From NCBI GenBank assembly GCA_036382775.1, contig DASVHD010000046.1, forward strand, positions 1-64,000: a DNA stretch of 64,000 bases, written 5' to 3'. The notes under the pieces were generated by a model that saw nothing but the letters and a program-made list of their open reading frames with translations, was not told the DNA's origin and did no database searches. A program made the position numbers and the translations under genes. This document shows, in pieces, positions 6-52,613 of the stretch. How positions within the stretch are numbered: the stretch's first letter is position 1; every line of letters begins with the position of its first letter. The stretch comes from a bacterium. Its GTDB lineage: Bacteria > Hydrothermota > Tepidihabitantia > SM23-42 > JAOAFX01.

Positions 6-1298
6 TTGTTCTTCAAATGCTCGCGCAAGATCTCAACCTTTTTCTCGGGACTGATTCGCTGCCGTTTGCCTTCCATTTCGCTCCTTCCTAACCACCTTAT
101 TCAGCTAGGCCCGATTGTCAAGTTCCATCTGAAGCAGGACACCGCGGCTGAGACTGATACAAGAGTAAGCCTTGATCTTGAGGGTGTGGATATTGTGTAT
201 GTGATCACGAAGATATCTGAGCAGCTCGGCGGCAGATACGACATTGTGTGCAGCAATGAAGTGAAGGGCTATGTCACTGTTAAAGTAAATAATATCTCCT
301 GGCGCGATGCATTATCAGCAGTCCTGCAAAATACCGGCTACGGATACAAACAATATGGGCATGTGTTGTTCGTCGACACACAAGAAAAAATTACTGAAGA
401 CGAGGAGGGTGGCGCGAAGCATATAGTCCTATATAATGTCTGGCCAAACGATGTCAACGAGATGTGTCGGCAGATCGAACCGTTACTCTCTTCTAAGGGG
501 CACGTTTTCCCTGATGAACGGACCGGGCAGGTGGTGGTCATTGATCATGCCGCAAAACAAAAGCAGGTCAAATTTTTAATCGCTAAGCTCAAGAAGCCCG
601 AGCGGCAGATACTTATCCAGGTTAGGATCATCAGCACAACAAATGTCATCAACGAGGCGATCGAACAGCGCTGGAACCTGCCGCTGTTGCGCCTGCCGGT
701 TATCGGCATTGTATATCAGCAAGAGCCGGCCATTCAAGGTTACGCTCATGTCACGGCGGGCGTCATCCCTTATTTTGACAGCTTGCTGGATATGCAGATC
801 CTGTCCGAACATACGCGAGGATATGAAAGCGTCACAGGAAGGCTATTGATCCTGGAAAACAGCGAAGGCACGCTCGCGACCGGTCAGAAATTCAGTGTCC
901 TGATACGGGACCAAGCCGGTAATGCGGTCAGCCAATTCTACTCCGCGGGGTTCAAGGTTTCGGCAAGGATCAACGCGCTTGAAGGTATAACGGACGGCCT
1001 TCCTTTGATGTTGAAAATAAAACTTAAGATCGAGATGAGCAGCTTTGACCGAGCATCGGTGCTTGCCGGCAGGCCGATCATTCCGAGTTATGAGTCAGAA
1101 CTTGAAACTTACGTGAGGGACGGCGAGACCGCGGTCATATGCAGGCGGATCGAAGGGCTGTTAGGCCAGCATGAAAAAGAACCGGGCTGTCTGCTGATCG
1201 CCAGGTTTCCCTTTATAAACCGTCTTTTCAGACCCTGGACACGTGTTGGCGACCTGACCCACCAGTACATTCTGATAACACCAAGGATCGTGAATTGA
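6..1298 (+). CDS. Secretin-family outer-membrane pore protein (PilQ/GspD-like), possibly 5'-incomplete
   Basis: Secretins form the multimeric outer-membrane channel of type IV pili and type II secretion. After a poorly conserved hydrophobic first ~35 residues comes an STN-like domain (about residues 50-125, LDLEGVDIVYVITKISEQLG). A NolW-like segment with the pattern IDHAAKQKQVKFLIAKL follows, and the C-terminal half matches the secretin core in shape, ending in YILITPRIVN, the usual ITPRIV end motif. The first codon is TTG at the very edge of the window and no ribosome-binding site is visible, so the true start may lie upstream and the first residues may not be native. At 430 residues or fewer it is short for PilQ. 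The family call is fairly safe; the pathway is not known because no pilus or type II genes are adjacent. Confidence 0.72.
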   Translation: MFFKCSRKISTFFSGLIRCRLPSISLLPNHLIQLGPIVKFHLKQDTAAETDTRVSLDLEGVDIVYVITKISEQLGGRYDIVCSNEVKGYVTVKVNNISWRDALSAVLQNTGYGYKQYGHVLFVDTQEKITEDEEGGAKHIVLYNVWPNDVNEMCRQIEPLLSSKGHVFPDERTGQVVVIDHAAKQKQVKFLIAKLKKPERQILIQVRIISTTNVINEAIEQRWNLPLLRLPVIGIVYQQEPAIQGYAHVTAGVIPYFDSLLDMQILSEHTRGYESVTGRLLILENSEGTLATGQKFSVLIRDQAGNAVSQFYSAGFKVSARINALEGITDGLPLMLKIKLKIEMSSFDRASVLAGRPIIPSYESELETYVRDGETAVICRRIEGLLGQHEKEPGCLLIARFPFINRLFRPWTRVGDLTHQYILITPRIVN

Positions 1299-1503
1299 TC
1301 ATACAAGGTACTTCTCCCGTTATACGGGATACTCGGTTTTGCATCCAAATCACAGATTTGGGCAAAAACGGTATCGATGCTCCCTCGATAAACTCGGGAT
1401 TAATCGAAAGATAAATTACTCATTACTGTTCGAGTGTAGTCGAGCGAAGTCGAGAACTACCTTACAAGGAATTTCTCGATGCGCGACACTTACTCGAAGA
1501 GTA
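1299..1503. repeat. Intergenic palindromic repeat debris
   Basis: No gene is seen here. The spacer holds short dyads: CCCGT-TAT-ACGGG near 1315, a CCCTCGATAAACTCGGG unit near 1381 related to the CCCTCGAT...CTCGGGAC units near 29220 and 30050, and one TCGAGTGTAGTCGAGCGAAG-type unit near 1430. Confidence 0.45.
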
Positions 1504-2415
1504 TTATTTTACGATAAACCGCTTTCGGAAAAGCTTGCGATTTGCATTGAACGAACAGTGAAATCGTGTCAGCGAATCGATCATAAATAATATCGGCAGG
1601 CGCTTGAAATACAATCGCGCCCGGTCCATCATGTGTTCGTCTTTTTTACCTTTGTATAATCGGAAAACTTTTTCGGCAAAACGCGGACCATATTCAAATA
1701 ACCCGGTAAAATCACCGGCCGGATCGCCAAGAACACGGTCGCTGAAATCAATAATATTGATGCGCTTTTTCTGGTTGTCCCACAGGATATGGATATAGGT
1801 CAGATCGCGGTGGATCAGTACTTTCCGTTTATTTTTTTCATATATTTCAAGGGCCGATCTCAGTTCATTGAGAAAGCGCTTTATGATCTGCTTGTCATTT
1901 TTTGTCAGATCGCGCGAGGGGAAAAGTAAAGTTTTAACATTACGCACAAACCGGTCATAATATAACCGTACGTTTTCGCTCCGGATGCGACAGCGTTTGA
2001 TCATATTTTGTGGTGTACTATGCAGGGTAGAGATGAATTCTGCCAATTGTTTGGCAATGGTTTGCCGGTCCTGGTCGGACAGTTTTTGAAATCGTGCGTT
2101 GGTCAATTCTTTCCCGGCAAGCATTTCATAGCCGGCAAATGATCTGTCTCTGGATACATAAGTGTATATAGGAATGCCAACATGCACTCTTTTTTTAAGA
2201 TAATTCAGCAATGCAATTTCATTGCCAAGCTCGCGCAGGTAATAGCCATCCCGCGATCTTATATTGGGAAAGCGAAAAACGATATTATTTTTGCCGTGAT
2301 CTCTCTCAAGGATCACTACGTGGTGGTCCCAGCCATGGGTAATAAAGCGGTATCTTTTCCACCGCAATCGCGGAAACTCGTTGTTTATTTTGTTAAGAAA
2401 GCGTTTACTATCCAT
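1504..2415 (-). CDS. Aminoglycoside phosphotransferase (APH/choline-kinase) family protein
   Basis: This is a protein-kinase-fold small-molecule phosphotransferase of the APH family. The catalytic loop is visible as VLIHRDLTYIHIL (H202, R203, D204), followed by the metal-binding IIDFSD (D223) and GDPAGDF (around D231-D235). The residue equivalent to the catalytic-loop Asn of most family members (NIL) appears as His in HIL, which is a deviation. The N-lobe is less clear. The 303-residue length is normal. It lies 35 bp downstream of abiEii on the same strand and could be co-transcribed with the AbiE pair. The substrate cannot be read from sequence: sugars, amino alcohols and antibiotics are all known in the family, so no resistance function should be assumed. 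Confidence 0.75.
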   Translation of the reverse strand: MDSKRFLNKINNEFPRLRWKRYRFITHGWDHHVVILERDHGKNNIVFRFPNIRSRDGYYLRELGNEIALLNYLKKRVHVGIPIYTYVSRDRSFAGYEMLAGKELTNARFQKLSDQDRQTIAKQLAEFISTLHSTPQNMIKRCRIRSENVRLYYDRFVRNVKTLLFPSRDLTKNDKQIIKRFLNELRSALEIYEKNKRKVLIHRDLTYIHILWDNQKKRINIIDFSDRVLGDPAGDFTGLFEYGPRFAEKVFRLYKGKKDEHMMDRARLYFKRLPILFMIDSLTRFHCSFNANRKLFRKRFIVK

Positions 2416-43609: not shown

Positions 43610-44506
43610 ATGAAAGTATCAATTTTGGTCCCCGCGTATAATGAAGTTGAGAACATCCCATACCTGGTCGAGGAATTAGACAAATTCATGAAAAACCATA
43701 AGGATTATGAAGTTATCGTCATTGACGACGGTTCCAGAGACAGCACTTTTGATGCCGTGAACAAGCATAAAAGAGACTATTTAAAGGTTGTCCGGCACAA
43801 GCGGAACCTGGGTAAGACCCAGGCGGTTTTGACCGGCGCAGCCGCGGCGGCGGGCGAGATCCTTGTGATCTTTGATGCTGACCTGCAGTTCGACCTTTAT
43901 GACATACCAAAACTTGTGGAATTGATCGATAACGGTGCGGACGTGGCGACCGGTTGGAAACAAGGCGTTTACGAGAAAAAATTCGTTTCCAATGTTTACA
44001 ACTGGTGCGGCCGTAGACTATTCAGGCTCAAAGTCCACGACATGAACGCGATCAAAGCGTTCAAGAAAGATGTTCTGCAGGCGATCCCGTTGCGCAAGGA
44101 GTGGCACCGGTATATTGTGCCCCTTGCCCATGAGTACGGATTCAAGATCGAGGAAATAAAAGTAACATTAAGACTGCGTAAATACGGTACTCCCAAGTAT
44201 CAGCAGAAATCAAGGATCGTCGTCGGCCTGTTCGATCTGCTGGCCGTGAAATTCCACGCGACGTTCATGCAGAAGCCGCTTCTTTATTTCGGCACGATCG
44301 GCATGATCTCCTTTTTGCTGGGCGTCGTGGCGGGGATCGTTGCGATCGTGCTCAGGATATTCGGCCACGGGTTCAGGCCGCTACTGTACCTCGTCGTTTT
44401 GCTCGTGGTGTCGGGCATATTGTTCTTTTCCCTTGGTTTGATCGGAGAATCGATCCGTTCGGTCCTTGACCGCCTGGAAAAGAACGATGCAGAGAAGCAT
44501 CGATGA
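43610..44506 (+). CDS. Family 2 glycosyltransferase with C-terminal membrane helices (DPM1/ArnC-like)
   Basis: GT-A glycosyltransferase that probably charges a polyprenyl phosphate or builds an envelope glycan. The first 230 residues contain SILVPAYNEVENIPYLVEEL, EVIVIDDGSRDST and LVIFDADLQFDLYDIPKL (DxD as DAD, with the QF/QD following motif). Two C-terminal membrane helices (GTIGMISFLLGVVAGIVAIV and LLYLVVLLVVSGILFFSLGLI) anchor it. It is the first gene of a run with a flippase-like protein, ugd, uxs and mscS. That context suggests a sugar derived from UDP-glucuronate or UDP-xylose, but the donor is not defined by sequence. Confidence 0.87.
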   Translation: MKVSILVPAYNEVENIPYLVEELDKFMKNHKDYEVIVIDDGSRDSTFDAVNKHKRDYLKVVRHKRNLGKTQAVLTGAAAAAGEILVIFDADLQFDLYDIPKLVELIDNGADVATGWKQGVYEKKFVSNVYNWCGRRLFRLKVHDMNAIKAFKKDVLQAIPLRKEWHRYIVPLAHEYGFKIEEIKVTLRLRKYGTPKYQQKSRIVVGLFDLLAVKFHATFMQKPLLYFGTIGMISFLLGVVAGIVAIVLRIFGHGFRPLLYLVVLLVVSGILFFSLGLIGESIRSVLDRLEKNDAEKHR

Positions 44507-44573: not shown

Positions 44574-45515
44574 ATGAAATGGGTGTGGACGGTCCTGCGG
44601 ATAGTCATCGGTCTGGCGCTGATCGCGTTTTTGCTGTGGAAGTGCAACCTTGGTCGGATCCTCCAGTACGTGCGCAATATGGATATAAGGTATTTGGCGC
44701 TGGCGCTGTTGGTTTATCTGGTTTTTATAATCATATCAGCCTGGCGCTGGCAGCTCCTGCTTGAGCATAAGAAGATCTCCATGCCTTTCTTCAGGACTCT
44801 ATCAGTTTATTTCATATCCATATTTTTCAGCAATGTATTCCCGACAACCATTGGCGGTGACGTGATGCGCATCGTATACGGACCGTCAACCAGCCGGACC
44901 GAATCGCTGGGTACGGTAATTGTCGACCGCATCCTTGGGTTCATCGGACTGTTTCTATTCGCTCTTGTTTGGGTGCTGTATGTAATGATATTCCAAGGTC
45001 GGGTTGAATTTCTGTCCTTTACGGTGATCGGTCTGGCTGTGCTGCTGCTTCTGACCTATTTTCTTTTTTCGGAAAAAGTGTACGCATTTTTCACGCCGTG
45101 GCTGCAAAAAATAAGGATCTTTCGGCTGGGCGAACGCCTGAGCAATCTCCACCGGATGATGACCGGCTATGGCGGCGCGTGGGGGCTTCTTGCCTTCTGC
45201 GTGCTCCAGTCCATGGTGATCCAGGCGCTCCTGGCGATCGCGCCGATGTTCGTTCTCCGCAGTCTGGGAAATTTTCAGACCGGCATCCTGCCTTTTTTCA
45301 TCTACGTGCCGATCATCAACATCATTTCCATGATCCCGGTTTCTTTGAACGCGCTGGGCGTGCGGGAGAACGCTTACGTGATCTTCTTTTCCAGGGTGGG
45401 GCTTGACAGCGCGGTTTCGTTCACGATGTCGCTGGTGTCGTTCTTCATGTTCTTTATCCTGACGTTGATCGGCGGCATCTGTTTTTTATTCTATCGGAAT
45501 AAGAAAAAGACCTGA
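44574..45515 (+). CDS. Flippase-like membrane protein (UPF0104 / LPG-synthase TM domain)
   Basis: 313 residues with about eight membrane helices. Family signs are WRWQLLLEHKKISMPFFRTLSVYFISIFFSNVFPTTIGGDVMRI near the N-terminus (the NxFPTxxGGDxxR motif) and IPVSLNALGVRENAYV in the second half. These proteins resemble the membrane part of MprF and archaeal AglD and are thought to move lipids or lipid-linked sugars; activity here is inferred. Only 10 bp separate it from ugd. No clear Shine-Dalgarno sequence precedes the ATG, and a hairpin repeat fills the spacer before it. Confidence 0.82.
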   Translation: MKWVWTVLRIVIGLALIAFLLWKCNLGRILQYVRNMDIRYLALALLVYLVFIIISAWRWQLLLEHKKISMPFFRTLSVYFISIFFSNVFPTTIGGDVMRIVYGPSTSRTESLGTVIVDRILGFIGLFLFALVWVLYVMIFQGRVEFLSFTVIGLAVLLLLTYFLFSEKVYAFFTPWLQKIRIFRLGERLSNLHRMMTGYGGAWGLLAFCVLQSMVIQALLAIAPMFVLRSLGNFQTGILPFFIYVPIINIISMIPVSLNALGVRENAYVIFFSRVGLDSAVSFTMSLVSFFMFFILTLIGGICFLFYRNKKKT

Positions 45516-45525
45516 TGGGGGTGCC

Positions 45526-46821
45526 ATGAGAGTGTGCATGATAGGGACGGGCTACGTGGGCTTGGTGACCGGCGCTTGTTTCGCGGATATCGGCCATAAC
45601 GTCATATGCGTCGACAACGATGCCCGGAAGATCGAGGTTTTGAAAAAAGGCGGGATACCGATCTATGAACCGGGACTCGAAGAACTGGTAAAAAAGAATG
45701 TTAAAGCCGGCCGGTTGAAATTTTCAAACTCGATCGCCGAAGGCGTCAACGAATCGGAGATCTTGTTCATTGCGGTCGGCACGCCGCCCAAGGAAAACGG
45801 CGAACCGGATCTTTCCAGCGTGGAGCAGGTCGCGATGGAGATCGGTGCCGCCATGAAGGATTACCGCGTGATCGTTGAAAAAAGCACGGTCCCGGTCCAA
45901 ACCGGGAAATGGGTGCGGACAGTAGTGGAGCGGTTCAGCAAAAACGCGAAGGAATTCGATGTGGCGTCCAACCCCGAGTTCTTGAGAGAGGGTTCAGCGA
46001 TAAGTGATTTCTCAAACCCCGACCGTATCGTGCTGGGCGTGGAAAGCGAACGGGCAAAGGAAAAACTGCTCGAACTTTACAAACCGATAAACGCGCCCAA
46101 GATCGTCACCGATATCGCGAGCGCCGAGCTCATCAAGCACGCATCGAACTCGTTTCTTTCCACGAAAATCTCATTTATCAACGCCGTGTCGGTGATTTGC
46201 GAGCGTTCCGGCGCGGATGTCCTTAAGGTCGCCGAGGGCATGGGCCTGGACAAGAGGATCGGCCGGGATTTCCTGAACGCGGGGCTCGGGTTCGGCGGTT
46301 TCTGCTTTCCCAAAGATCTAAAAGCGTTCATCGGGATCTCGTCCAGACTGGGATACGACTTCCGGCTGCTCAAAGAAGTAGAGAACGTCAACGAGGAGCA
46401 AATGCTCAGGGCGGTTAAGCGGCTGGAGGACATGCTGTGGAACCTGAAGGATAAGAAGATCGGCGTGCTGGGACTGGCGTTCAAGCCGAACACTGATGAC
46501 ATGCGCTTCGCACCGTCGATCACGATCATCGGCGAACTGCAAAAACAGGGCGCCATGGTCAAGGGTTATGACCCGGTGTCGATGGAGCGGGCGAAGGAGA
46601 TCATGCCGGATATCGAATATTGCCGGAATGCGTACGAGGTCGCCCAGGGTGTTGACGCGATAATCCTGGTGACCGAGTGGGACGAATTCCGATCGGACAA
46701 GCTCGACATGAAAAAAGTATTGGTTTCCATGCGGCAGCCGGTCCTGCTGGACGGCAGGAACCTGTATGATCCACTGGCCATGAAAAAACTTGGGTTCCTC
46801 TACGCGGGGATCGGGCGATGA
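45526..46821 (+). CDS. ugd: UDP-glucose 6-dehydrogenase
   Basis: Oxidises UDP-glucose to UDP-glucuronate with two NAD+. The Rossmann start is MRVCMIGTGYVGLVTGACFADIGH; further motifs are FIAVGTPPKENGEPD, ASNPEFLREGSAISDF (catalytic Glu in EFLREG) and the nucleophile C260 in GFGGFCFPKDL. The C-terminal domain has GVLGLAFKPNTDDMRFAPS. The length (431 aa) is typical. GDP-mannose dehydrogenases share most of these motifs, but the following UDP-glucuronate decarboxylase supports UDP-glucose as substrate. The stop overlaps the next start (ATGA). Confidence 0.92.
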   Translation: MRVCMIGTGYVGLVTGACFADIGHNVICVDNDARKIEVLKKGGIPIYEPGLEELVKKNVKAGRLKFSNSIAEGVNESEILFIAVGTPPKENGEPDLSSVEQVAMEIGAAMKDYRVIVEKSTVPVQTGKWVRTVVERFSKNAKEFDVASNPEFLREGSAISDFSNPDRIVLGVESERAKEKLLELYKPINAPKIVTDIASAELIKHASNSFLSTKISFINAVSVICERSGADVLKVAEGMGLDKRIGRDFLNAGLGFGGFCFPKDLKAFIGISSRLGYDFRLLKEVENVNEEQMLRAVKRLEDMLWNLKDKKIGVLGLAFKPNTDDMRFAPSITIIGELQKQGAMVKGYDPVSMERAKEIMPDIEYCRNAYEVAQGVDAIILVTEWDEFRSDKLDMKKVLVSMRQPVLLDGRNLYDPLAMKKLGFLYAGIGR

Positions 46822-47747
46822 GGGTGGTCATAACGGGCGGCGCCGGATTTATCGGATCGCACCTGACCGATCATTACCTGGCGCACGGCCACGAGGTCAT
46901 CACAGTGGACAACTTGATCACGGGCCGTAAGGAGAATATCGCTCACCACGCGCGCGCGGCGCGGTTCGAATTCATCCGTCACGATATCAGCCGGCCATTT
47001 AACATCAAGGGACGGGTAGATCTAATACTCCAGTTCGCCTCGCCGGCCAGCCCGTTCGATTATCTTAAATACCCGATCGAAACGATGAAGACCGCTTCGT
47101 TCGGCACCTACAACATGCTCGAACTGGCGCGGCAAAAAAAGGCCAAGTTCCTGCTGGCTTCCACCAGCGAGGTCTATGGCGATCCTGAGGTTCACCCGCA
47201 GCGCGAGGAATACTGGGGCAACGTGAATTCAGTCGGACCACGGGCAGTTTACGACGAAGGCAAGAGGTTCGCGGAGGCGATGACAGTCGCGTACCACTCC
47301 AGGTACGGCCTCAGAGTGAACATCGTGCGTATCTTCAACACCTACGGCGAGCGGATGCGAGAAGGCGACGGCCGGGTCATCCCGGCGTTCATCTGTGCGG
47401 CCCTGCGCGGCCAGCCTATGCCTATTTTTGGTACGGGCAAGCAGACGCGGAGCTTCTGTTACGTAAACGACCTGGTCGACGGGATCGCGCGCCTTGCCCG
47501 TTGCGGTTATTTCATGCCGGTCAATCTCGGAAACCCTGGTGAATACACCATGCTCGAACTTGCCCGCATGGTCAAGAGACTGACGAAGAGCAAAAGTATG
47601 CTGAAGTTTCATCCCCTGCCTCAGGACGACCCGAGGAAGCGGAAACCGAATATCTCAAGGGCGCGGAAACTGCTGGGCTGGCAGCCCATGGTGGGACTGG
47701 AAAAAGGTTTGAAAAAGACCATCAAGTGGTTTGGGGATGAAATATGA
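46818..47747 (+). CDS. UDP-glucuronate decarboxylase-type NAD-dependent epimerase/dehydratase
   Basis: Extended SDR enzyme predicted to convert UDP-glucuronate to UDP-xylose. It has GGAGFIGSHL (NAD-binding), ILQFASPASPFDYLKYPIETMKT (a hallmark of UDP-xylose synthases) and STSEVYGDPEVHPQ. The catalytic tyrosine and lysine are in VYDEGKR (Y145, K149), and IVRIFNTYGERM and GTGKQTRSFCYVNDLVDG are also present. The length is 309 aa. The position directly after ugd, with a 4-bp overlap, fits the pathway UDP-Glc to UDP-GlcA to UDP-Xyl. The usual YDExKR motif is preserved as YDEGKR. Confidence 0.9.
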   Translation: MRVVITGGAGFIGSHLTDHYLAHGHEVITVDNLITGRKENIAHHARAARFEFIRHDISRPFNIKGRVDLILQFASPASPFDYLKYPIETMKTASFGTYNMLELARQKKAKFLLASTSEVYGDPEVHPQREEYWGNVNSVGPRAVYDEGKRFAEAMTVAYHSRYGLRVNIVRIFNTYGERMREGDGRVIPAFICAALRGQPMPIFGTGKQTRSFCYVNDLVDGIARLARCGYFMPVNLGNPGEYTMLELARMVKRLTKSKSMLKFHPLPQDDPRKRKPNISRARKLLGWQPMVGLEKGLKKTIKWFGDEI

Positions 47748-48580
47748 TCGAGTGGCTGAGACAACACGGACTGAGGATCGCTTTTATACTGGCACTCGGA
47801 GTGTGCTTTTATATTCTACTCCGGGGGCTGATCCCCCGTCTGGTCAAACGCACGGTGGTCCTGTCCATGAAGGACAAGCCGGGTGTCGAAGCGGAGAAAA
47901 GGATCCGTACGATCGGTCGCGTGCTGAACAACACACTGGGCGTCATCATCATACTGATCGTGCTATTCACGATCGGCGCCGAGACCGGTATAAACATCGG
48001 ACCAGCGCTTGCCAGCCTGGGGATCATCGGCATTGCCGTCGGTTTCGGCGCGCAGAGCTTGATCAAAGACCTGATCAACGGATTTTTCATCCTGCTGGAA
48101 AACCAGTACGGCGTTGGCGATGTCGTTAAAATAGTGGATATCGCGGGTCAGGTCGAGGAGATCAATCTGCGCCGGACTGTCCTGCGAGACATGGACGGTA
48201 TTGTCCATATTGTCCCTAACGGGACCATTAATGTTGTCAGCAACTTTACCAAAGAGTTTTCTCGGGTCAACATGAATATCACCGTTGCTTACAAGGAGGA
48301 TATTGATGCCGTGATCGCGGTCGTGAACCGGGTGTGTACGGAACTCGCCGCGGATCCCCAGTGGGGCGCGAAGATCATCAAGACGCCCCAGGTACTGCGT
48401 GTCGATTCCCTGGGTGCTTCCGGAGTAGAAATAAAGATCTGGGGTGAGACCCTGCCGATCCTGCAATGGCAGGTCATGGGCGAGCTTCGGAAAAGAATAA
48501 AGAAGGAATTCGACCGGAAAGGAATTGAGATCCCGTACCCGCACATGAAAGTCCATTTGGAAAACCCGCCAAAGGATTAA
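47744..48580 (+). CDS. mscS: MscS-family mechanosensitive channel
   Basis: 278 residues. An N-terminal helix (GLRIAFILALGVCFYILLRG), a second helix (TLGVIIILIVLFTIGAETGINIGPAL) and the pore-lining TM3 (ASLGIIGIAVGFGAQSLIKDLINGFFILLENQYGVGDVV) are characteristic, with the Gly/Ala packing and the beta-domain YGVGDVVKI. A C-terminal alpha/beta domain ends at PYPHMKVHLENPP. Such channels release solutes on hypo-osmotic shock. It overlaps the end of the decarboxylase gene by 4 bp and is the last member of the operon. Confidence 0.9.
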   Translation: MIEWLRQHGLRIAFILALGVCFYILLRGLIPRLVKRTVVLSMKDKPGVEAEKRIRTIGRVLNNTLGVIIILIVLFTIGAETGINIGPALASLGIIGIAVGFGAQSLIKDLINGFFILLENQYGVGDVVKIVDIAGQVEEINLRRTVLRDMDGIVHIVPNGTINVVSNFTKEFSRVNMNITVAYKEDIDAVIAVVNRVCTELAADPQWGAKIIKTPQVLRVDSLGASGVEIKIWGETLPILQWQVMGELRKRIKKEFDRKGIEIPYPHMKVHLENPPKD

Positions 48581-48830: not shown

Positions 48831-48858
48831 TTGACGGGAATAAATTCTCAATTATAAT
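48831..48858 (+). promoter_or_regulatory. Promoter of the SBP-TonB fusion gene
   Basis: TTGACG (48831-48836), 16-nt spacer, TATAAT (48853-48858). A ~63-nt leader ends in AAAGGAGG. Confidence 0.75.
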
Positions 48859-48927
48859 GTATAATAAATAGCGGACAGCTAATAGCATATGGCTAATAGC
48901 AAAAAATACACCACCAAAGGAGGTTTC

Positions 48928-50961
48928 ATGAAGAAATTATTTTTCATTCTGATCAGCGCGGCACTTATCATCGCGGGATGTGCGCAGAAGACCGAGCCCC
49001 TTACGGGTGAACCGGGTGGCAAGCTCGTGATCGGCACCACCGAGTTCCCCGAAGAACTCTCGCCTTTGTCGCCCTCAGTTTTCAGTTCCAATGATATTCT
49101 GGACCTTTTATATATGCACCTTCACCGCATTGATCCTGAGACCGGTAAAATGAAACCGGAACTCGCTTCGTCCTGGGAATTTTCCGAGGACCTGTCTTCG
49201 ATCACCTATTACCTGCGCACTGACGTCAAGTGGTGGGATGGCGAACCCGTAACGGCCGAGGACGTTCTGTATACCTACGAAAGAATGACTGATCCTGATT
49301 TCGGCTACTCCGATATCGCCCGGATAAGGTTCATAAAAAAAGCTGAACTAATTGGCACCCATGCGATCCGTTTCACTTTCGACCGCGTGTACGCCGACCT
49401 GCTGACCGATTCCGATATCATGCCTGTGCCCAAACACGTGTATGAAAAACTCAAGGCCGATTTCGGAAAAAAGCCGATCGGCAATGGTCCGTACAAAGTC
49501 AAGGAGTTCAACGCCGGCAGTTCGTTGATCATGGTCGCGAACGAGGGGTACTACCGGGGCAAGCCGCCGCTTGATGAGATCGACCTGATCAATTTCACAA
49601 ACCCGGATTCCATGATCGCGGCATTTTCGCAGGGCAGCCTGGACTTGATACTTGATATCGCGCCGACCGCGGCTAAGTCCCTGAGTGCCAACAAGAACGT
49701 GACCGTGGATTCCCGGCCCGGCAACAGTTACACGTACGTCGGCTGGAATCTCAACAACGAAGACCTGAAGGACAAGGATGTGAGAAAGGCGATCAGCATG
49801 GCGATAAACCGGTCCAAGATCCTCAATGATATCTTTGCGGGTATGGGTACGCTTTCGCTGGGGCCTTTACCGCCGACATCATGGGGATACAGCGAAGACA
49901 TCGCGCCCGTCGAGTACAATCCCGCGAAGGCCAAGGAGATCCTAAGGCAGAAGGGATACGGCGACAAGAACAAAAATGGATATCTGGAAAAGAACAACCA
50001 GGAGTTCACTCTCAACATCATTACCAATATCGAAAACCCGGACCGCGTGGCTATCCTGGGTAATATCGTGAACGACCTTAAAAGTTTGGGCATCAAAGTG
50101 AATGCGCGTGATCTTGACGCCGCCGCGTTCATCCAGTCCCTCGTGAGCAGGAATTTTGACGGATTTGTCATGGGTTGGAGCGTCGGTGAAAAGATCGATC
50201 CGACCGCGTACTGGTATTCAGAACCGGCCAGGGGCAAGTTCAATTTCATATCATACAAAAACCGCACGGCCGATTCGCTTATCGATGAAGGCGTAACCAT
50301 GCTGAACCGCAAGAAGGCCAAGGAAACATGGGGTCAATTCCAGAAGATAGTGTACGAGGACCAACCTTACACGTTCCTGATCGTGCCCAATCGGATCTCG
50401 GCAAGTTATCTGCGGGTTAAAGGCGCGGGTGAAGGCATCCAGCTGGCGAGCGTCTATTCTTATTGGATACCCGAAGCAGAACGCAGGGTGGCGGTCGCTT
50501 ATGTACCGCCGAAGAAGCCAGAGGTCGTGACGCCCGCGGTCCCTGAAAAGGCCGAGAAGCTGCCAGAGATAAAACCCAAGACGGTCCTGGCCCCGGAGAA
50601 ACTGCTGGAAGCCGCCGCGAAGAAAGAAACCACAGCCGTTGCCGTGACAACCCCGCCGGTTGCGCCGCCTGTCATTCCGCCAAAAGCATCGGTTATTACC
50701 AGACCTATTCCTAAGAAACAGACATCGCCCAAGTATCCGGAATCAGCCCGTGCACTGGGTGCGACCGGACGGGTGGTCGTGAGGGTGATCGTGGGTATTG
50801 ACGGCAAGGTCAAAAACGTGATTATTTTATCAAGTTTCGGCAACCCCGCGTGTGAGGAAGCAGCTCTGGCTGCCGCGAAAAAGTGGGAGTTTGAGCCGGC
50901 TACAAAAGACGGCGTGCCGTTCGAGCAGAACACGGCGATCCCGTTCGATTTCAAACCATAG
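48928..50961 (+). CDS. Peptide-type ABC substrate-binding lipoprotein fused to a TonB C-terminal domain
   Basis: 677 residues. A lipoprotein signal (KKLFFILISAALIIAGC) precedes a family 5 solute-binding domain (~25-525): KLVIGTTEFPEELSPLS, PELASSWEFSEDLSSITYYLR, WWDGEPVTAEDVLYTYERM, GNGPYKVKEF and DKDVRKAISMAINR are all typical of DppA/OppA-like proteins. A Pro/Lys/Glu linker (~527-599) leads to a TonB_C domain (~600-677): SPKYPESARALGATGRVVVRV, VGIDGKVKNVIILSS, EEAALAAAKKWEFEPA. TonB proteins normally have an N-terminal membrane helix, so this combination is unusual. No permease or ATPase genes are adjacent. The start is fixed by AAAGGAGG; the 13 codons upstream are untranslated leader. Confidence 0.88.
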   Translation: MKKLFFILISAALIIAGCAQKTEPLTGEPGGKLVIGTTEFPEELSPLSPSVFSSNDILDLLYMHLHRIDPETGKMKPELASSWEFSEDLSSITYYLRTDVKWWDGEPVTAEDVLYTYERMTDPDFGYSDIARIRFIKKAELIGTHAIRFTFDRVYADLLTDSDIMPVPKHVYEKLKADFGKKPIGNGPYKVKEFNAGSSLIMVANEGYYRGKPPLDEIDLINFTNPDSMIAAFSQGSLDLILDIAPTAAKSLSANKNVTVDSRPGNSYTYVGWNLNNEDLKDKDVRKAISMAINRSKILNDIFAGMGTLSLGPLPPTSWGYSEDIAPVEYNPAKAKEILRQKGYGDKNKNGYLEKNNQEFTLNIITNIENPDRVAILGNIVNDLKSLGIKVNARDLDAAAFIQSLVSRNFDGFVMGWSVGEKIDPTAYWYSEPARGKFNFISYKNRTADSLIDEGVTMLNRKKAKETWGQFQKIVYEDQPYTFLIVPNRISASYLRVKGAGEGIQLASVYSYWIPEAERRVAVAYVPPKKPEVVTPAVPEKAEKLPEIKPKTVLAPEKLLEAAAKKETTAVAVTTPPVAPPVIPPKASVITRPIPKKQTSPKYPESARALGATGRVVVRVIVGIDGKVKNVIILSSFGNPACEEAALAAAKKWEFEPATKDGVPFEQNTAIPFDFKP

Positions 50962-50987: not shown

Positions 50988-51019
50988 CAAGGGGGAAAGC
51001 CCGGTCGGTTTCCCCCTTG
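50988..51019 (+). terminator. Terminator hairpin overlapping the next promoter
   Basis: CAAGGGGGAAA pairs with TTTCCCCCTTG (11-bp perfect stem, 10-nt loop). The last three bases of the 3' arm are the first three bases of the TTGACA -35 of the next gene. There is no T-run. Confidence 0.65.
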
Positions 51020-51044
51020 ACAATTTATGGAATATCAATATAAT
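51017..51044 (+). promoter_or_regulatory. Promoter of the 51102 gene
   Basis: TTGACA (51017-51022), 16-nt spacer, TATAAT (51039-51044). The leader carries AAGGAGG. Confidence 0.8.
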
Positions 51045-51101: not shown

Positions 51102-52196
51102 ATGAAACATATAACCGTGATACTCTTTCTTATATGTTGTTTATTCGGTGAATGGCAGCAAACTGAAGAAATAGTCCTACCAAAGGGCATACAAATAAAC
51201 GATATCGCGATCAGCAAGGAAGGCGAGATCTGGCTGCTTTCGTCGGCTACGATATTAAAGCTTGAGCCATCGTCTAAAACACCTTTGATAATAAGCGGGA
51301 TCTCGGGTGCTAGACTATTCGCGATCGGTGACGCCACGGTCTATCTGGTAAGGGACAATAACCGCCTGGCGCTATTTGACATCAATAAGGGAACCGACGA
51401 GGAATCCGAAGCCATATTCGCCGCACCGAGCAAGTTAAAGGTCGTGTCCGCGGCAGGCCAGAATTCCCTGATCGCACTGGAAGCAGGGCGCTTGACATTC
51501 TGGGAAAATGGGAAAATGGTGGGCGCGATCCCCGCGGATGCGCAAAAGTTCGCCACGGTACCGCTGGCTGATTATGCCGAATCATCAATACCGCTGTACA
51601 CGCTTAAGGATAACCGTGTCTACGCGTGGACCGGCGGGGCGTTCCAGCACGCAGAAAACTACCGGAACCGGGTCGTCTATAGTTCGTCCGGCACGATCCT
51701 CGATATAACTGCGGACAAGAGCGGCAAGCTTTATATGCTTTTCGCTGATTCCATCGTCGTGCTCAACAGCGAAGGCAAGTATACCGGCAAGGTTCAGACA
51801 CCGGGAATGCCATCTGAGAGCGAATTGATCGCTAATCCAGCAAACCAGAGTCTTGTACTGTTCGACAAAACCAACCGGAAACTGGTTATGTTCAACGAGA
51901 CCAAAAAGGACAACGGCGACCTTATTACTTTGAACAAGAACTCGCCTAACCCGGTCGACAATTACACCGAGATCGAGTTCACGCTCGGCCGGTCGCTGAA
52001 CATTACAATGACAGTTTATAATCTTATCGGCGAACCGGTCAGGGTGCTGGCCAAGGGACAGTTCGGTATGGGCACGCATCGCGTGCACTGGGATGCGTGC
52101 GACCAGAAAGGCAACCTCGTTCCCAACGGCGTTTATTTCTATCGCCTGGAATCGAATAAGGGCGTCGCGATAAAGCAGCTGGTCGTGCTAAGATAG
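51102..52196 (+). CDS. Secreted beta-propeller-like protein with FlgD-like C-terminal sorting domain
   Basis: A short signal peptide (KHITVILFLICCLFGEW) starts the 364-residue protein. The middle is a series of short strand pairs of the type 'GEIWLLSSATILKLEPSS', 'GDATVYLVRDNNRLALFDI', 'KSGKLYMLFADSIVVLNSEGKY', consistent with a six- or seven-bladed propeller that I cannot assign to a family. The last ~85 residues form a FlgD Ig-like/sorting tail (NSPNPVDNYTEIEFTLG, ITMTVYNLIGEPVRVLA, GNLVPNGVYFYRLES, KQLVVLR). This is the fourth such tail in the window. CAAGGAGGTCC precedes the ATG. Confidence 0.78.
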   Translation: MKHITVILFLICCLFGEWQQTEEIVLPKGIQINDIAISKEGEIWLLSSATILKLEPSSKTPLIISGISGARLFAIGDATVYLVRDNNRLALFDINKGTDEESEAIFAAPSKLKVVSAAGQNSLIALEAGRLTFWENGKMVGAIPADAQKFATVPLADYAESSIPLYTLKDNRVYAWTGGAFQHAENYRNRVVYSSSGTILDITADKSGKLYMLFADSIVVLNSEGKYTGKVQTPGMPSESELIANPANQSLVLFDKTNRKLVMFNETKKDNGDLITLNKNSPNPVDNYTEIEFTLGRSLNITMTVYNLIGEPVRVLAKGQFGMGTHRVHWDACDQKGNLVPNGVYFYRLESNKGVAIKQLVVLR

Positions 52197-52220: not shown

Positions 52221-52613
52221 ATGGCGCGGAGAAACGGTCGGTTGGTGGGGTTGATCCGGGAATCGTTGAGCATCTTCAACGTGGCGCTAGCGCACCAGAA
52301 GCAGGATGTGGTCGAAACGCTGCTGTTAAACTTGATCTACACCGGTCAGGTCGCCACCTGCCTGCCGAAACAATCGGTCATCCAGGGCCGGTTTTTTTTC
52401 ATCCGCCCGCTGTATTTTTTTGACAAGGAGCTGATCAAAAAAATCGCCCGCGCCTGCGGTATACCCGGTGATGCTAATACCTGTCCGTACAGTCAGGATA
52501 ACAAGCGGGAGAAAATAAGGCTCTTTCTGCGGGATGTCCAGCGTGATTACCCGGATGTTTATCGCGGGGTATTCAACGCCCTCTTCAACCTGAATAGAAG
52601 TTATCTGCCTTAA
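52221..52613 (+). pseudogene. N-terminally truncated TtcA/TilS-family (PP-loop) remnant
   Basis: The 130 codons align in pattern with the C-terminal half of TtcA-type tRNA-thiolating ATPases: NVALAHQKQDVVETLLLNLIYTGQ (the ALGHHxxDxxETxLLN motif), FFFIRPLYFFDKELIKKIARACGIP (IRPL...), and CPYSQDNKREKIRLFLRDV. The ATP-binding PP-loop (SGGxDS) and the CxxC pair that should precede them are absent, and only 24 bp separate this frame from the previous gene. It is therefore probably a decayed gene or a partial domain. The ARRNGRLVGLIRE at its start corresponds to the RRRR-G segment midway through TtcA. No clear Shine-Dalgarno sequence is present. Confidence 0.6.

Follow-up and report, generated by a model that had tools for sequence, protein, structure and literature searches.

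A family-5 solute-binding protein and a TonB C-terminal domain are joined in a single lipoprotein in members of candidate division WOR-3/Stahlbacteria, which is the phylum of the carriers as judged from a scan of named genomes. We describe the gene as it occurs in the window, by which we mean the whole stretch of 64,000 nucleotides that was analysed; a profile search places the fusion family in 52 of the 147 genomes of the phylum, spread over 12 families and with one copy per genome. The architecture is solid at the level of the phylum and is a new combination of known domains; no description of such a fusion was found in the literature searched (open-licence PMC texts). As to its role, we tentatively propose a lipid-anchored binding protein that would dock via its TonB domain on outer-membrane receptors and capture or sense a ligand there, rather than feed a known importer. 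The gene and its parts are laid out as follows.

48916..48923, plus strand: Shine-Dalgarno sequence AAAGGAGG, a strong ribosome site
48928..50961, plus strand: coding sequence of the fusion (lipoprotein SBP_bac_5, spacer, TonB_C), 677 aa
48928..48981, plus strand: signal peptide and lipobox Cys18, read by eye from the sequence
49006..50472, plus strand: solute-binding domain, residues ~27-515 (Pfam core 74-430)
50473..50733, plus strand: disordered Pro/charge-rich spacer, residues 516-602, with a short helix at 556-567
50725..50955, plus strand: TonB C-terminal domain, residues 600-676, with Cys642

The reading frame at 48928-50961 (+) is single and unbroken over 677 codons, and AAAGGAGG ends four bases ahead of the ATG at 48928. 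Both domains are complete in Pfam: SBP_bac_5 matches residues 74-430 (E 2.5e-84, profile positions 1-358 of 368, 283.9 bits against a cut-off of 32.4), and TonB_C matches residues 600-676 (E 2.9e-20, profile positions 2-78 of 79, 72.9 bits against a cut-off of 24.6). NCBIfam concurs in that its TonB family domain scores above its own cut-off, and the Opp4A, NikA and DppA matches of the fusion fall far under theirs. The first-pass annotation, which had read a binding domain, a Pro-rich linker and a complete TonB_C domain in one lipoprotein, is thus confirmed by Pfam, with the lipobox read by eye. Its linker is indeed rich in proline (20% Pro, 29% K/R/E/D) but longer than the ~70 residues proposed, spanning 87 from residue 515 to the YP at 603. 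Cys18 of the lipobox is invariant in 22/22 copies in alignment A1 and almost invariant in A2.

The binding domain is nearest by sequence to Bacillus subtilis AppA (best solved relative 1xoc, profile E 3e-96) and nearest by fold to AppA and NikZ (Foldseek E 5.5e-48 for AppA, 1xoc). The fusion therefore has the full domain in common with the AppA/DppA/NikA family-5 solute-binding proteins (PF00496), from which it differs by the added C-terminal spacer and TonB domain and in that no cognate permease was found for it. The stretch GWVSDNGDPDNF of two paralogues linked to methyl-accepting chemotaxis protein (MCP)-type regions corresponds to GWSVGEKIDPTAYW in the fusion; in DppA the peptide N-terminus is held by the Asp of this region.

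The AlphaFold model of the whole fusion (mean pLDDT 81, 20 sequences) has an ordered binding domain and an ordered TonB domain, separated by a spacer with pLDDT <50 at 523-551 and 567-588. Structure prediction of the linker and the TonB_C domain had been suggested in the first-pass annotation, and it yields a spacer that is disordered but for the helix at 556-567, which covers a conserved PEKLLEAAA in model and alignment, followed by a TonB fold. Modelled alone, TonB_C reaches pLDDT 88, and its best solved matches, also by Foldseek, are TonB domains of Neisseria, Pseudomonas and E. coli, several of them in receptor complexes. The best six solved entries score Z 10.2-12.7, including TbpA-TonB (12.7), FoxA-TonB (11.6) and BtuB-TonB (10.2), and the top TonB match superimposes with an rmsd of 1.6 over 85 residues. 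TolA domains reach only Z <=7.0 against 10-12.7 for TonB on this predicted model; a true TonB fold is favoured by the model and a TolA-like domain is less likely, though it may be distantly related to TolA. No tolQRAB-type locus surrounds the fusion, the scanned neighbours not being tol genes. FusB, a TonB homologue that by its structure entry titles was solved with a protein cargo, ferredoxin, also has a fold close to the model (Z 9.2-9.7). FusB is not known to have a binding-protein domain.

With the TonB energy transducer (PF03544) the fusion shares the fold of the C-terminal domain and a similar spacer length; it differs in having a lipoprotein anchor in place of the ExbB-binding helix, and an intervening binding domain. 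PMC12204202 describes the ExbB-ExbD-binding N-terminal motif of TonB, of the Ser-x-His type, and notes that tonB is frequently, though not constantly, next to the ExbB/ExbD genes. The fusion sequence has no transducer membrane helix of this type but starts with a lipobox signal that lacks His, and for this reason the protein cannot be an ordinary TonB.

In a search of 61 genomes, full-length relatives at 51-65% identity were recovered from the genome's own family and order and from one more family of the class, and the carriers in the scan of named genomes include 'Ca. Hydrothermus pacificus' JdFR-72. WOR-3 also has a cultured strain, sy37 (AP038914, NBRC 116057; PMC12285271). The TonB domain and its YP are retained in every one of the 42 copies for which a full-length alignment was made (42/42), and their spacers measure 84-128 aa (median 96), with ends that depend on the alignment. 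Cys642 is present in 36/42 copies, with the usual Leu-Asp in the remaining six; the position is Leu in the canonical TonBs of the same genome, and the substitution may point to a changed partner. The lipobox reading over the 42 copies leaves out L021, L163 and L169, whose starts were mis-set by the ORF caller, which for L022 and L026 gave an earlier Cys. Scanning a collection of 67 loci, we found TonB_C in frame in 19 of 24 WOR-3 loci; in the remaining five the frame is cut by a contig end (four) or broken (one). TonB_C was found within the SBP frame at none of 43 loci outside WOR-3; two short SBP patterns served to choose these loci, so the search was not exhaustive. These various counts overlap, many of the loci L057-L080 stemming from the same genomes as those with G handles. 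The fusion of G003 (L074 8409-10398 (+)) is split by a frame break into pieces of 458 and 211 aa.

The full-length relatives at this identity and the occurrence in over a third of the phylum's genomes put the architecture far above chance. The genome is a draft and the window one of its contigs, as would suit an assembly chimera or a chance fusion. The same architecture, which the first-pass annotation had asked to be sought in close relatives, recurs in independent assemblies across the 52 carriers and rules out such an artefact; judged from the relatives a chimera is very unlikely, its probability being close to nil.

Upstream of the fusion lies a run of genes that is conserved within the order.

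43610..44506, plus strand: GT2 glycosyltransferase, a conserved neighbour
44574..45515, plus strand: LPG_synthase_TM membrane protein, a conserved neighbour
45526..46821, plus strand: UDP-glucose dehydrogenase, a conserved neighbour
46818..47747, plus strand: NAD-dependent epimerase family gene, a conserved neighbour, probably a UDP-glucuronate decarboxylase
47744..48580, plus strand: MscS channel gene, directly upstream of the fusion in 17/21 same-order loci
48831..48858, plus strand: promoter-like TTGACG-16-TATAAT, 11/12 match, ~70 bases before the start

The fusion gene comes last in this run, and MscS is on the same strand as the fusion in 17 of the 21 loci, a set that leaves out L066, L071, L075 and L078 (their upstream sequence was too short, or they belong to a different family). 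In L068 MscS is kept beside the fusion and the sugar genes are gone. The gap between the two genes is 347 bases in the window, where a spurious opposite-strand frame lies between them, against 28-106 in the other loci. Promoter-like sites are no more numerous than in shuffled sequence (4 versus 2.9, sd 1.6), which makes the one at 48831..48858 suggestive only. MscS as an obligatory partner was rejected, the association being limited to the lineage (0/20 distant loci). Distant families have other neighbours, such as M42/M23 peptidase genes in L078 and, elsewhere, genes resembling pyrR and pyrB as judged by their N-termini, and these differences speak against a function tied to a fixed operon. 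In several distant families the fusion adjoins a ~400-aa membrane protein whose C-terminal tail is charged (L174 2797-4041 (-), L167 3796-5028 (-), G000:C35:258967-260166); the L167 copy (= L075 8639-9868) has no Pfam match, and a role as dedicated partner was discarded as not specific, the protein being found in 136/147 phylum genomes.

That no ABC permease, ExbB/ExbD or receptor is adjacent, as initially annotated, holds for the immediate neighbours scanned, and across the loci compared no receptor is a constant neighbour. The sole locus with a receptor beside the fusion, named by eye from its N-terminus, is L162 of G075, where the receptor-like gene (235-2208 (-)) is divergent and has a TonB-box-like stretch near its start, again by eye. 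Downstream in the window, 51102-52196 (+) encodes a protein with a FlgD/secretion-tail-like C-terminus slightly under the Pfam cut-offs, preceded by a 12/12 promoter-like site at 51017-51044. The next frame, 52221-52613 (+), encodes a 130-aa PP-loop protein whose match to ATP_bind_3 is confined to profile positions 96-180 of 182; the relative in L074 has 242 aa, so the window copy may be shortened.

The genome, which is 95.6% complete, contains 11 TonB_C, 10 Plug and 7 ExbD matches; TonB-dependent receptors, which the first-pass annotation had proposed to look for, are therefore represented by ten plug domains. Five of the TonB_C proteins begin with a membrane helix and resemble ordinary TonBs, with 96-205 aa from helix to YP (four at 96-130, one at 205), and one (L196 890-1513 (-)) is a TolA candidate adjoining an ExbD/TolR-type gene. 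The transducer helix is lacking in the fusion, in a 266-aa lipobox-type protein (L197 1228-2025 (+)) and in a TPR protein (L198 497-2083 (-)), the latter two also without a binding domain; two further TonB_C proteins are short and of ambiguous type. TonB_C outside transducers is hence not unique to the fusion here, and the domain may be a general module in this genome.

The side on which the fusion is anchored can be argued both ways. No Asp directly follows the lipobox Cys in the copies whose start was read, and LolA exceeds its cut-off in 12/18 carriers, this genome among them, which fits an anchor in the outer membrane. Asp after Cys as a sorting rule for lipoproteins comes from E. coli and may not hold for WOR-3. 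A spacer similar in length to the spans of four of the genome's five TonBs fits an anchor in the inner membrane from which the TonB domain reaches outwards.

In the mechanism that we propose, the lipid anchor would fix the fusion in one of the two membranes, the family-5 domain would close on a peptide-like or metal-chelate ligand, and the TonB domain on its flexible spacer of 84-128 residues would bind the TonB box of a receptor by strand addition. The binding domain would thereby stay beside the receptor exit, and since the genome has no Opp/Dpp-type permease, a captured ligand would be held, buffered or reported instead of being passed to a cognate ABC importer. Docking draws support from the TonB-type model fold, the plug and ExbD genes, the TonB-like spacer length and the invariant YP. 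There is also a partial parallel: according to PMC3813593, E. coli TonB makes contact with the binding proteins FhuD and BtuF, and there, as in the fusion, a binding protein is brought to a TonB domain. The fusion differs in that the link is covalent, the binding protein is of family 5 and a matching permease is missing. Against docking speak the want of a constant receptor neighbour, the presence of TonB_C in other non-transducer proteins, the competition with working TonB into which a docked fusion would enter, and Cys642 in the place of the canonical Leu.

Two of these objections lend themselves to another reading, in which the sole use of TonB_C would be to fasten the lipoprotein to the cell wall or some other protein of the envelope, apart from the Ton system. 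A tether to the wall would draw on the murein binding ascribed to TonB_C. The same genome has other secreted proteins, the 266-aa lipobox-type protein and the TPR protein, in which TonB_C comes with no transducer helix. We consider such an anchor rather unlikely, as the fold is nearest to TonB domains, several of them solved with receptors. Somewhat less probable again is a regulator or sensor, in which ligand binding would alter the blocking of receptors by TonB_C or its pairing with TonB, and a periplasmic peptide signal would tune uptake. The MscS neighbour conserved within the order would suit it, and so would the two remaining SBP_bac_5 proteins that the genome encodes, 1048 and 1035 aa long (L132 7147-10293 (+) and L133 7615-10722 (+)), in which an MCP-type region precedes a C-terminal DppA-like domain. 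Family-5 domains are consequently not seen here as transport subunits. The L132 gene adjoins CheW and a response regulator, neither protein has a membrane segment in a simple hydropathy scan, and many relatives encode frames of about this length that show the SBP match too; the two are possible cytoplasmic peptide chemoreceptors. However, the fusion shows no signalling output, and the MCPsignal match of the L133 protein is below the Pfam cut-off (23.8 against 34.6 bits).

The first-pass annotation had also entertained that the fusion hands substrate from a receptor to an importer, and this did not hold up in this genome. The complete SBP fold near AppA and NikZ would befit the subunit of an importer, ABC or otherwise, whose genes lie elsewhere, and an importer of a family beyond those searched could be present in a genome of this completeness. 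Its BPD_transp_1 proteins are four only, namely PstC and PstA for phosphate and a UgpA/UgpE-like pair of the sugar type; no Opp/Dpp permease pair was found by this search, nor were OppC_N and oligo_HPY. Across the phylum OppC_N is over its cut-off in 7/147 genomes, among the 52 carriers only in G128. The test on its own is not fully sensitive, as permeases in G126 and G127 escaped it; these are the two of 31 carriers tested that have oligo_HPY (absent in 29/31). In both of these genomes a peptide operon with OppB-type permeases (named by eye) has separate binding proteins of its own, and the profile of the fusion matches these through the binding domain alone. We regard an importer subunit as improbable.

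If docking on receptors is correct, WOR-3 might have moved a peptide-binding protein from ABC transport into the Ton system, where it would capture or report at the receptor, leaving the soluble MCP-linked family-5 proteins to read peptides in the cell; this broader scenario is speculative and on balance doubtful. Were it true, the rewired protein would represent both a permease-free use of a binding protein and a natural covalent pair of binding protein and TonB. To our knowledge, the notion that binding protein, TonB and receptor meet during uptake has rested on the E. coli contacts with FhuD and BtuF. A natural fusion present across a phylum offers a ready test of the contact between binding protein and TonB, and that it has persisted with no peptide pump raises the question of what purpose such a domain serves.
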